A DNA stretch of 64,000 nt from Paraescarpia echinospica (lineage: Eukaryota > Annelida > Polychaeta > Sabellida > Siboglinidae): the NCBI GenBank assembly GCA_020002185.1, contig CM034537.1:71444763-71508762 (forward strand). The letters are read 5' to 3'. Position 1 is the stretch's first letter. Every line of letters begins with the position of its first letter. The notes beneath the pieces were generated by a model. That model worked only from the letters and a program-made list of their open reading frames with translations, was not told the DNA's origin and did no database searches. The position numbers were made by a program, and so were the translations under genes. Shown one piece after another: positions 17,330-64,000 of the stretch.

Positions 17330-20300
17330 ATTTCTGCGACTTTTATTCCGGTGGCACACCTGTACCCATGGTGACCTACACTCGGCAGGAACTATTCGCC
17401 CATAACATTGCGAGTGTCACTGGCGGAAGGCTGCCTCAGCCTTTGTTCGACACGTTAAAGGACAATGGAATTTGTGCGCGAGGTTGCAGAGCCGGTCGCA
17501 ATCGCCATCATACAATACGTCCAGTAATTGGACGTCGGCCCGGCTTTACACCCACTTATCACCAACGCGGTGTCAACAACGCAAACATTACACGTGTGAA
17601 ACTCTCGTCATGTCAAACTGATGACAAGGATTTTAAGAATCGTTACACCAACATCGCATTGATCAATGCAAGATCTGTGAAAAATGAGACGCTGACTATA
17701 AATGAGGAAATTATCCAACACGATTGGGATGTTTTGGCCATCACCGAGACGTGGCTAAAAAAACTGGAGACGAAGCGATTGTGGCTGAACTGACGCCTCC
17801 CGGCTACACATTCAATCATGTAGCACGTGCCTCTGGTCGTGGCGGCGGAGTTGCCATAGTTCATCGAAATACCTTCAACACCAAGATCCTCCCAAAGCTG
17901 CCATTCACAACCATCGAACTTCTCCGTTTGCAACTCACCAACCCGTTCTTGTTGAAATACAATATCTGGGTCGCTTATCACCCGCCTGCATCAAGTAAGA
18001 CATCTGGAACAATATCGATTTTTTTCGCTGACCTTGAGCAGCTATTCATCGAGGCATCCATCTCCGTTGTTCCTACTGTCATCATTGGTGACTTCAATGT
18101 TCATTTTGATGATACCCTCAAATCAGAACCTCTTCGCACTCTATGTGAATCGTTCAATCTACTTCAACATGTACATTCGCCAACGCACCAAACTGGACAT
18201 ATATTGGATCTTGTGATCAGTCAAACTGATGACGACTTCATTACTTCCGTAACTGTGCATCCTGACTCTCTGTCTGACCACCATCGCATTGAACTCACAC
18301 TAAGAGCACTGAAGCCTGCAGTAAAAACTAAGACGATTGCAAAGCGGTATATCAGGAACATTGAAACAGATGCACTCCGAAACGATATCGAGTCTGTATG
18401 TGCTGACATGACATTGCGTACATGCGCGAATGATCGACAAGCAGAGGATTTGGTGGAGATGTACAACACCTGTCTCACTGAGTGCCTTGACAAACATGCC
18501 CCGTTACGCAATGTGAAAGTAAGAGACAGCACACCACATCCCTGGTACGACTCTGACATCGACGACGCCAGGGATAAGAAGCGGAAACGGGAGAATGTGG
18601 AGAGAAGAACTAAACTGGAGATTCATCGGCAATTATATGTCACCGCTCGTGAAGAATGCACTGCTTTGATATCAGCACGCAAAACGGATTATTATCAAAA
18701 CCGCCTGGAGAAGGCAAACAACAAAACCATATTTCGATTACTGAGATCGCTTGATGGCCACCGCATACAGGAACACCCTGAATTCCACTTGACAGCCCAA
18801 AGATGCGAAAAATGTTCACGTTTGTTTAGTGAAAAGATTGACAAGCTCCTGTCAGGTCTGCAGTGTTTCAACATCATCGATAGGCCAACAGATGAAAGAC
18901 GTTGTTTCACTGACAGTATCCATGCGTTTGATTCAACAACGAACACAGAGATCACAACGATTTGTGGTACTACTGGCAAAATATGCGCGTTGGATCCTCT
19001 GCCTGCAATTCAGCTAAGAGACAATATGACAAATATTGTGTCTGTCATCACACGGATTACAAATGCTTCGCTGGACGAGGCAGTCATGCCAAAGTCGCTG
19101 AAGCATGCAATTGTCCGTCCGCTTTTGAAGAAACCATCACGTGACAAAGACATTCTGAGCAGTTATCGACCTGTGAGTAACCTTACACAATTATCCAAAG
19201 TAATTGAGAAAGTGATCGCACTTAGGATAATGACGCATGTTTCTGACCAGCAAATGGTTGAGTGCTTTCAGTCGGCGTATCGAAAAAAAATTTGACCGAA
19301 ACCGCTACTGTACGTTACAAGTGCCATCAAAACAGCCATTGACAATAAACAAGAAACCATCTTGGTTCTCGTTGATTTTAGTGCCGCCTTCGATACTATC
19401 AACCATGACATCTTGATTAAGCGTCTACGTTTGCGCTATGGCTTTGTTGGAAAAGCACTGGAATGGATGACATCGTACCTGCAAGACCGGACGCAGCGAA
19501 TTGTAATCGGTGACCAATCGTCGAGTATTACTACTCTAACGACAGGTGTCCCGCAAGGCTCCGTCCTTGGACCACTGCTCTTTTCATTATATGTCCAACC
19601 TATCGGTGACATTGTTCGAACCCATGGACTCTTCTTCCACCACTATGCTGACGACTTACATATCTACTCACATTTCGACCCGAATCGTTCCGCTTTAACG
19701 GCTGCGGTTCAGAAAATGGAGGACTGTTTGGGTGAAATAAAGAACCGAATTGCATGGAATTCTATGTGCATGAACGACGGCAAGACACAGTATCTTCCGA
19801 TTGTACCCAAGTATGCGGATGCAATCGTTGATGGCACTGTGATTCGCGTTGGTGGTTCTACAATTACAGCTTCACGATGTGTTCAAAGTCTCGGTGTCTT
19901 CATTGACAGGCAGTTAGGTATGAAAAAGCAAGTGTCGCAAACTGTCAGCGCATGCTCATTCTACCTCCGCCACATAAATCAGATTAGCCGTTTTTTACCC
20001 AAACCATCAAAGGAACGCGTAGTCAATGCCATCATCACATCACGGATTGACTACTGCAACGCACTCTTGTACGGAACGTCTGCAGTTAACACCGCGCGCC
20101 TGCAACGAATACACAACTCGGCTGCCAGACTGATCCTGCGTCGTCCACGTAGTGACAGCGCCACGCCCCTGTTACGGGAACTTCATTGGCTGCCTATTGC
20201 GCGCAGAGTGGATTACAAGATACTGGTACTCACGTACAAAGCCATGCACATGACGCGCCCGCGTACCTGTGTGAACTCTTGCACCCATATCAACCGGCAA

Positions 20301-21383
20301 GAGCACTGCGCTCTGCGAGCAGTAACATGTTGGAAGTGAAGGGGTCAGCACACTGTCAGTTTTCCCATTGGCGACCATGTTAATGTTTTGTGTGATTATA
20401 AGAAAACGTGACCTATAAAGTTTCTTAAACTTCTCACCTGCTGTTATTATCATCTCTTTGACATGCTGATCGAGTTTAATCAAAATCTAATATCTCTGGC
20501 TCTTGCAAAATGCCTGTATGTATGACACCCGTCAATATTTACAACTGGATGCAGGCAGTAATCCGGCTAAAGTGTCAACTAGCCAAATTGCTGCCAGATA
20601 CCCTTCCGCTTAGTTAAATAAGCTAAAAAGACACCATTTTACTGTCAACAGCTTCTACAATCACATCTAGAAATCTGACTACTCAAATGCACTTATGTCA
20701 GAGCAAGTGAATATTGTAAAAAGTCATTTCTCAAAAATATACTGCACTCTTTTTGTCTGTAACCAAGCAGGAAGTCTAACAGTGTCCTAACCCCTGAAGC
20801 GCACTCGTGTCAAGGCTGGGGCGGCTCATTCGCTGTAGCTGCTGCGTCCCTATGGAACACTTTACCGAGTGTTGTTAAAACCTGTGACACACTCGCCAGC
20901 TTCAAATGTCGTCTGAAGACACATTTCTTTTGTGTTTCATATTAGTGCCACTCTACATGAACACTGCCCTCTACTAAAACCAATTTTAATTAGTTATCGT
21001 ATTCGTATAATTATTATTCATTATTCCTCACGTAAACTATTTTACATCAAATGTTTTACTAAATTATTTATTATTATTAATCATACATATATTTATTTAT
21101 TAGTATTATTTTATATAGTTATTGTGCTAGATTGATTATTATTAATTTTATTAATTTTTGCTGAATAACTGCTATTTATTTACTTCTTTATTTAGAAATT
21201 CTACATTATTCAATATGTATGTATTTATTTATTTTATTCTTTATCACTAATATTTATTTTAAATTAATATACATATACATATTTATTGCAATTCTACCAT
21301 TTTGGTGAATTTTAATATGTTGTGAAGCGCCACGAACAATACTGGGTGTGGCGCTATACCAAATAAAATATATTATTATTATT
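17330..21383 (+). mobile_element. L2/CR1-type non-LTR retrotransposon
   Basis: An N-terminal endonuclease part reads NIALINARSVKNETL and WDVLAITETWL, then GDFNVHFDD and LSDHHRIELTL. It is followed by reverse transcriptase blocks SSYRPVSNLTQLSK, VDFSAAFDTINHD, TGVPQGSVLGPLLFSLY and HHYADDLHIY, then SRIDYCNALLYG and LRELHWLPIARRVDYKI, the usual C-terminal signature of L2/CR1 elements. The frame is broken at A-runs near 17,757 and 19,285 and again near 20,245. The 3' end shows GGCGCTATACCAAATAAA and an ATT microsatellite, typical of this group. An extra ~420 bases separate the HWLPI region from a final LWNTLPS block near 20,850. From 18,354 on it is duplicated in reverse at 25.5-28.5 kb. Confidence 0.85.
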
Positions 21384-21419
21384 ATCATATGGATATATAA
21401 TTATATATATATATATATA

Positions 21420-62542: not shown

Positions 62543-62861
62543 AAGCGGAAGTCATCAACAGCGTTCCAAAGGCCCTTCGGTGGTACATTGAGCAGACGCA
62601 AAAGAAGAGCGCGGTGGCGGCAGCGGCCACACGATCGCTCGGTAGAGCGCGACGAACCCTACAGTGGACACCCCTCGCGCGTCGTCAACGGATGGACTCG
62701 TCTCCCGCCCTACCCACGCCACCGTCGGAAGGACATAAGACTTGGGAGAGTCTTTAAAGACGACGACGCATAATGACGTGGAACAGTCGTCTGTGTGTCG
62801 GTATCGCTTACGCCGCGCTTCATATCGTGAACGGGATCACAGTCGACTATCTGATACGACT

Positions 62862-63853
62862 ATGGCGCGTCACCGGAAAAAGCTCCAGGGAGTATACTTC
62901 GATCCCGCTAAGGTAGGGAGTTACGGAGGTATCGAGTCTTTCCGCCGAGTCGCCTTCCGACCTATAGAGCGTGTACCGAGATAGATCGTCGAACAATGGC
63001 TATCGGAACAGAACGCCTATACTTTACACAAACCGGTCAGAGTTCATTTCAAGCGGCGACGCGTGGTCGCCGGAGGCCAGAATCAACAGTGGCAAGCCGA
63101 TCTCGTCGACGTGTCCAGTCTCAAAAGAGACAAAGAGGGTACGACGTTCCTACTCACGGTGATCGACGTCTTCTCGAAAGTCGCCCGATGCGTTCCCCTG
63201 AAGAACAAGTCGGCGACGTCTATGACGAGGGCGCTGGACGGACTGTTCACCAACGGCGTTCGTCAGCTGACGTTGCTGACCGATAGAGGTCTGGAATTCC
63301 TGAAACGTGGCGTTCGGGTGTATTGGAAAAGTACGGTATCAATCACTTCTCCACCTACAACGAAGAGACCAAGGCGAGCATCGTGGAACGCTTCAATCGC
63401 ACGCTAAAGACGCGGATGTGGCGATACCTGACGCATAAAGAAACGTGGCGATACATCGATATCCTTCCGGATCTTGTGCTGACGTAAAACGACACACCCC
63501 ATCGCAGCATAAGGATGGCTGCGTCGCAGGTGAATGCGTCTAATCAGGTAGAGGTGTGGCAGCTCTTGTACGGCAGTCATCACGGTAAGGGCGTGCCCAA
63601 GTACCACGTGGCGGATCGCGTGCGTATCAGCAAGGTCAAGAGACGGTTCGACAAAGGGTACATGGCGAATTGGACAGAGGAAATATTCACGACAAGCAAG
63701 GTGCATCCGTCCGATCCGCCCGTCTATCGTCTGACGGACGATCTCGGAGAGATACTGGACGGCACCTTCTACGAACCGGAGTTGCAGAAGGTGACGGTTC
63801 CGGTCGATAAATTGTACCGCGTGGAATCGATAGTGCAGCGAGAGTGCGAGTGA
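62862..63853 (+). pseudogene. Integrase, copy 3
   Basis: From ATG 62,862: YFDPAKVGSYGG, a private TAG at 62,983-62,985, QWQADLVDVSSL, LTDRGLEF, then a frameshift near 63,325 and SIVERFNRTLKTRMW with the catalytic Glu. A TAA interrupts the next block; from 63,515 the C-terminal part (VADRVRISKVKRRF, KGYMANWTEE, FYEPELQKV) is open to TGA 63,851-63,853. The chromodomain is replaced by (GAGT)n. Confidence 0.8.
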
Positions 63854-64000
63854 GTCAGTGAGTGAGAGAGAGAGAGTGAGTGAGACAGAGTGATTGAGTG
63901 AGTGAGTGAGTGAGTGAGTGAGTGGGTGGGTGAGTGAGTGAGTGAGTGAGTGAGTGAGTGAGAGAGTGAGTGAGTGAGTGTGAGAGAGAGTGAATGAGTG
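63849..64000. repeat. (GAGT)n tract, continues beyond the window
   Basis: Complement of the tract at 49,929-50,486, beginning at the corresponding integrase codon. Confidence 0.95.

Follow-up and report, generated by a model that had tools for sequence, protein, structure and literature searches.

Two neighbouring inverted repeats at a scaffold end of Paraescarpia echinospica as possible twin fold-back duplications at one break in one gene

Scaffold C7 (CM034537.1; 71,508,762 bases) in the genome assembly of the annelid Paraescarpia echinospica (GCA_020002185.1; 1,083,790,144 bases in 3,111 contigs) contains three large inverted repeats (IR1, IR2, and IR3) in its terminal 64,000 bases, hereafter the window. 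Our analysis suggests that IR1 and IR2 are twin fold-back inverted duplications, formed from the two ends of one break in one gene, a reading to which we give a probability of about 0.52. The central observation is that the spacers of the two repeats, S1 and S2, adjoin in all three unrearranged paralogs found in the same genome (on C9, C11, and the small contig C1857), so that IR1 and IR2 share one breakpoint. An earlier note on this DNA had taken the three repeats to be independent of one another, a view that, given this shared point, finds no support for IR1 and IR2.

The repeats themselves are present in the assembly where the earlier note had placed them, and kilobase arms of such identity rule out chance. 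The region of the first two is composed as follows; A denotes the host segment in the arms of IR1 (A' its inverted copy), B the left arm of IR2 (B' its inverted copy), F the flank between the repeats, and U a second copy of the IR2 region, F-B-S2-B', situated to the left of the one in the window at a distance of about 100 kb.

17105-21383, + strand: RT1, a non-long-terminal-repeat (non-LTR) retrotransposon encoding endonuclease and reverse transcriptase (Pfam Exo_endo_phos_2 and RVT_1), with ends taken from an empty site in C9.
18353-22396, + strand: left arm of IR1, part RT1 and part segment A; its join to S1 is new, and it is beside S1 in none of the three paralogs.
20342-20794, + strand: insert of 453 bp inside RT1, in both arms of IR1.
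21800-22042, + strand: exon in the left arm of IR1, repeated in inverted form at 24721-24963 (- strand); its C9 counterpart is 95% identical.
22397-24365, no strand: spacer 1 (S1; 1,969 bp), the putative fold-back loop of IR1, located between A and S2 in C9, C11, and C1857.
23240-23407, - strand: exon in S1, whose C9 counterpart has a stop and a frame change.
24366-28513, - strand: right arm of IR1; its join to S1 is ancestral, S1 meeting the host part of this arm in all three paralogs.
28514-28518, no strand: TATTT, five nucleotides between the right arm of IR1 and F, a derived junction where U continues an older retroelement.
28519-30826, no strand: flank F, also present in U at 70.4-68.1 kb to the left of the window.
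30827-32983, no strand: left arm of IR2 (B); its join to S2 is ancestral, RT2 being unbroken across 32983/32984 here and in C9.
31920-33661 (approximate ends), - strand: RT2, a second non-LTR retrotransposon, which spans the left arm and S2 (RVT_1, 1.2e-8 for 33001-33459).
32984-34982, no strand: spacer 2 (S2; 1,999 bp), the putative fold-back loop of IR2, inverted in U.
34052-34219, - strand: exon in S2, 98% identical to a C9 exon that is on the same strand as the others there.
34983-37139, no strand: right arm of IR2, the derived copy, which stops at a scaffold gap; in all three paralogs S2 continues into S1 instead.

A genome search with the host part of IR1 and S1 gave three other long matches, on C9 (at about 116 kb), C11 (at about 88 kb), and C1857. 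Each of these paralogs has one arm only, joined to that end of S1 which in the window borders the right arm of IR1; because the paralog join matches that of the right arm, the join between the left arm and S1 is the new one in IR1. The order in C9 is X, A, S1 reversed, S2 reversed, and among the best candidates from a search with B and S2 the unrearranged order B-S2-S1-A, with one A each, is found in C9, C11, and C1857. No second arm occurs in any of the three among the matches listed. The aligned ends of S1 and S2 are about 23-40 bp apart across the three paralogs: in C1857, 11838 is the last position of S2 and 11869 the first of S1; in C11, the corresponding positions are 87445 and 87486 (the initial 57 bases of S1 being unaligned there); and in C9 there are 23 unaligned bases between them.

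On the other side, each of the three paralogs matches B from 31500 onward, and the contiguity of B with S2 is seen by sequence in C9 (a reading of the B/S2 boundary that left out 119501-120299) and by adjoining matches in C11 and C1857. Since RT2 crosses the B/S2 boundary unbroken in C9, the right arm of IR2 is the new copy. Each spacer is therefore contiguous with the original arm of its repeat, in the case of S1 and the right arm in three of three paralogs. Both spacers end at the same ancestral point, where the break would have occurred, and both new junctions join this point to the far end of their own spacer. Likewise, the older retroelement that is uninterrupted in U identifies the 28513/28519 junction in the window as derived.

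The content of the IR1 arms supports their origin by copying. RT1 is partly duplicated within IR1, both arms carrying its 3' part, and the arms run about 1 kb past the 3' end of RT1 into host DNA, that is, segment A with its exon. The 453-bp insert, relatives of which exist elsewhere in the genome at about 82% identity, is nested in RT1 in both arms; five of six RT1 copies fetched from elsewhere pass straight across the insertion site, and the sixth (L004) ends there. The nested insert and the exon-bearing host DNA common to both arms indicate that the arms are copies of each other. In all six fetched copies the match to RT1 begins at 17204 (copy L003 has an additional weak match from 17086), and in five of them the 3' end falls at 21385-21415, with L004 stopping at 20338. 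The C9 paralog is an empty site of RT1, with ATCATAT at both ends of the element, which puts the 5' end nearer 17105. The IR1 endonuclease frame has 107 relatives, the named ones including those of the tubeworms Ridgeia piscesae and Lamellibrachia satsuma as well as molluscs and others. Formation of the right arm of IR1 by 3' transduction of RT1 was also considered and rejected, as the paralogs show the join of this arm to S1 to be the old one.

Arm identity was compared for each repeat. Apart from a microsatellite at 21350-21640, which was excluded, the differences between the IR1 arms come down to a single-base mismatch, a 1-nt gap, and a pair of short A/T tracts. These tracts (19286-19290 and 22327-22332) are A-rich on the + strand in both arms, and the derived state seems to lie in the left arm for one tract and in the right arm for the other. 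At 22327-22332, C9 matches the right arm at all four mismatched bases; at 19414 all six RT1 copies agree with the left arm, which the four RT1 copies shown also resemble at 19286. This polarity indicates that both IR1 arms have changed since the duplication. In IR2, the outer part of the arms (30827-31637) has 75 mismatches per approximately 810 bp (about 9%), or 35 per approximately 650 bp (5.4%) if a microsatellite is left out, and the inner part (31638-32983) has a single mismatch per 1,346 bp (0.07%); short gaps occur besides across the arms. This abrupt step within one pair of arms argues against reading arm divergence as age, as the earlier note had done in assigning the three repeats to different times. 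The step may reflect either an old repeat that was converted inside or a right arm whose outer part came from another paralog. Under either account, arm identity does not date the repeats, and different ages for IR1 and IR2 find no support.

The new junction of IR2 is found in three places in the assembly, namely, the window, U, and contig C2411, the last of which holds the window-type arrangement, to go by how closely each of its arms matches in the search listing. In U the flank is the same and S2 lies in the opposite orientation between near-identical arms, with one difference in 1,999 bases (99.95% identity); S2 is thus present in both orientations in the assembly. This fits recombination between identical arms, or a choice made by the assembler where 1.3 kb of the arms are identical. 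The two copies of F are 97.7% identical over 2,324 aligned positions, with the differences mostly at 29100-29990. Over a tract of about 700 bp (29250-29990), the window and U diverge by about 5%, with near-identity on both sides of it. Among the matches listed, RT2 has many further copies in the genome, mostly at 77-88% identity.

The gene that would have been broken is tentatively stanniocalcin-like, on the basis of profile matches. When the S1 exon is joined before the A exon, Pfam reports Stanniocalcin (5.4e-7, 29.6 bits against a cut-off of 23), the order being artificial because C9 has A before S1. The A exon alone reaches 13.1 bits for the same family, below the cut-off; the S1 and S2 exons give nothing alone and no Pfam family when joined to each other. 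C9 has four exons on one strand, the first of which was recognised only by a weak match (E value of 0.045), whereas the window exons of A, S1, A', and S2 are on the +, -, -, and - strands, respectively. Both placed paralogs (C9 and C11) are found no more than about 125 kb from scaffold starts, and the window is at a scaffold end, which suggests a subtelomeric gene family, with the reservation that scaffold ends need not be chromosome ends. The 64-kb window has no TTAGGG repeats on either strand and no TTAGG repeats on the + strand.

Taking the assembly to represent the chromosome, we infer a break, folding, and an order of events as follows. The ancestral gene would have been collinear and ordered X-A-S1-S2-B, followed by F. 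Breakage at the S1/S2 point would have cost some 23-40 bp. The A-S1 end may then have folded back over S1 (1,969 bp) and been copied outward, giving A-S1-A' with RT1 inside, and the F-B-S2 end may have folded back over S2 (1,999 bp) and been copied to give B-S2-B'. The two products would have been joined at 28513/28519 with the 5-nt insert TATTT. Later recombination between the identical IR2 arms would have flipped S2 in U, and gene conversion may account for the identity of the inner IR2 arms. Of the possibilities raised in the earlier note, fold-back duplication with a spacer of 1-2 kb is thus the best-fitting reading for IR1 and IR2. The complete history, in which both ends of one germline break were healed by fold-back copying and then joined, the two spacers together restore the order of the gene segments, and one repeat kept flipping an exon-bearing spacer, must be called doubtful.

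Several observations weigh against twin fold-backs. (i) Read against C9, microhomology amounts to 3 nt (ACC) at the new junction of IR2 and to at most 1 nt at that of IR1, which is below the pattern described for human junctions in PMC3907307. (ii) The outer arms of IR2 are too divergent for one copying event, unless there was exchange with a paralog or an old origin with later conversion. (iii) The new junction of IR1 is found once in the genome, and F next to B is seen only in the window copy and U (the paralog comparison having covered B from 31500). (iv) The contigs of the window and of U both end inside the second IR2 arm. (v) The C9 gene is itself damaged, its third exon having a stop and a frame change.

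The single occurrence of the new IR1 junction and the contigs that end inside arms also speak for an assembly artefact, namely, chimeric or haplotype-confused contigs at the scaffold end. The window ends a scaffold, the contig stops inside an arm at 37139 (a gap of 1,000 N, 37140-38139, begins exactly where the right arm of IR2 stops), and S2 appears in both orientations beside nearly identical flanks. Moreover, nanopore genomic reads include fold-back artefacts (0.55-0.6% in PMC12870357, with about 2 kb between the mapped parts of one example read). However, the new junction of IR2 recurs in the window, U, and C2411, U differs from the window in sequence, the spacers are genomic sequence with paralogs rather than unaligned read sequence, and it is improbable that two artefacts would coincide at one ancestral point. 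We consider an artefact unlikely, and the concern applies mainly to IR1 and IR3. Replication template switching, similar to microhomology-mediated break-induced replication, is in our estimate a rather poor prospect too. Here one polymerase would copy X-A, switch and copy back along S1-A', and then switch to F-B-S2 and again to B', giving the same products with no end folding on itself. On this view the window can be divided into four template segments, whose joins show little microhomology or none and in one case a 5-nt insert, and F-B-S2 is present more than once (window and U) and hence was copied rather than moved. Nevertheless, this scheme requires two hits at the S1/S2 point, or else a template broken at that point, which leads back to a single break.

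Two further explanations carry far less weight. Mobile-element sequence is found in all arms, and RT1 and RT2 belong to dispersed families, so that independent transposon copies could have been inserted by chance in inverted orientation. For IR1 and IR2, two inverted insertions are excluded by the nested insert, by the host exon in about 1 kb of shared host DNA in the IR1 arms, and by the three single-armed paralogs; for IR3, the idea is weakened only by truncation of the arm inside a polymerase region, and overall it is very improbable. An invertible exon cassette, in which the identical inner IR2 arms serve to flip the exon-bearing S2, could draw on the two S2 orientations at 99.95% identity, yet the frame of the S2 exon has a stop in the window and none in C9, and ordinary recombination between repeats suffices (as described in PMC3961182), which makes a cassette hardly credible.

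IR3 lies farther along the scaffold, in Polinton-like sequence:

50319-56361, - strand: left arm of IR3, with decayed Polinton-like polymerase and integrase frames (rve above the cut-off at 50718-51383; DNA_pol_B_2 below the cut-off at 54941-56518).
56362-57756, - strand: spacer 3 (1,395 bp), which continues the polymerase region of the left arm, the frame at 54941-56518 crossing 56361/56362.
57757-64000, + strand: right arm of IR3, placed by arm alignment, which begins inside the polymerase region and runs off the scaffold end.

The last base of the window is the last base of the scaffold, and the right arm of IR3 is thus cut by the end of the assembly. The arms have 88 mismatches in 5,719 compared positions (1.5%), evenly distributed, with gaps of up to 201 bp. 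In four frames the proportions of nonsynonymous (pN, 0.013-0.017) and synonymous (pS, 0.012-0.026) differences are alike, and stops were gained six times in the right arm and once in the left arm, a pattern of neutral decay. The anatomy of IR3 is compatible with that of the other two repeats: a presumably original arm running into the spacer and a truncated inverted copy beyond. IR3 probably represents a fold-back of its own, formed within an old Polinton-like element. Its separate origin is suggested by the uniform divergence of 1.5%. Long TCAC microsatellites stand at the outer ends of the IR3 arms (49925-50554 and 63766-64000), the left of which takes over at the point where the sequence ceases to resemble 5235-6479 of another Polinton-like element.

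The latter element (1-11949) has a polymerase frame, an integrase (rve), a packaging-ATPase-like frame (Adeno_IVa2, 8.1e-6), and further frames without a Pfam match, which we tentatively take to be capsid genes. A stretch in spacer 3 (56704-56922) resembles 1423-1205 of its polymerase frame. In both elements rve is above the cut-off (8815-10110 and 50718-51383) and DNA_pol_B_2 only below it. No relative of the Polinton-like polymerase frame was found in viral contigs or phage records, and PDB gave one chance-level match only; our literature search found no paper combining Polinton, Maverick, annelid, and capsid. A copy (99.5-99.6%) of the first part of the element, together with 4.6 kb to its left, is located at -20414 to -12720 relative to the window.

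Smaller inverted pairs at 13.7-14.6 kb and 32.27-32.47 kb, which the earlier note had listed as repeating the pattern, are both real. The former (13744-13916 and 14396-14569; 91% identity, 479-bp spacer) has no further copy in the surrounding 174 kb, in 40 kb of C1, or in eight loci compared. The latter is an older feature of RT2 that is also present in the three paralogs and, among the matches listed, partly in other copies of the RT2 family. As for the suggestion that the genome is prone to fold-backs, a survey for inverted pairs of at least 150 bp with spacers of less than 5 kb found, in the 110 kb to the left of the window, the U copy of IR2 and one 618-bp pair (88% identity, 2.2-kb spacer) with a 246-bp companion, and none in 40 kb of C1; these 150 kb are too little to call the genome prone to them. 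A 78-bp tandem array (about 14 units; 38463-39598) also lies in the window inside a dispersed repeat, and has relatives both at 12361-13362 and some 21 kb to the left of the window. Neither RNA families at gathering score nor tRNA genes were found in the window.

Most known fold-back duplications come from patients, tumours, and yeast, in which as a rule one end of the break is recovered. In the present case, the unrearranged paralogs within the genome appear to preserve a record of both ends, so that the break point, the loop sizes, the lost bases, and the flipping could be read at base resolution. Our findings also call for caution: the divergence of arms cannot serve as a clock where inverted repeats exchange sequence, and the ends of scaffolds should be checked at the level of reads.

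Human fold-back inverted duplications are described with single-copy (disomic) spacers of a few kilobases near chromosome ends, and with microhomology of 2-8 bp at 13 junctions, or with longer repeats or inserts (PMC3907307). IR1 and IR2 share with them the inverted duplication and a normal-copy spacer of a few kilobases; short microhomology or inserted bases at the junctions and the position near an end (of the chromosome there, of the scaffold here) may be further parallels. They differ in that the human cases have one broken end and duplications of up to tens of megabases, whereas here apparently both ends were involved, the arms measure 2-4 kb, and the products were joined together. As in recurrent human inversions between inverted repeats (PMC3961182), a spacer is present in both orientations between near-identical arms, but the orientations are seen here in copies within one assembly and there in genotyped individuals. 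Near-identical arms are likewise a feature of human Y palindromes, in which gene conversion keeps the arms alike (PMC3723533), although IR2 is small, has a sharp step to divergent outer arms, and is part of a broken gene. Finally, fold-back read artefacts (PMC12870357) and palindromes from whole-genome amplification (PMC6218980) also place inverted copies in reads or assemblies; unlike these, the repeats described here have genomic spacers with unrearranged paralogs, and the junction of IR2 occurs in three places.

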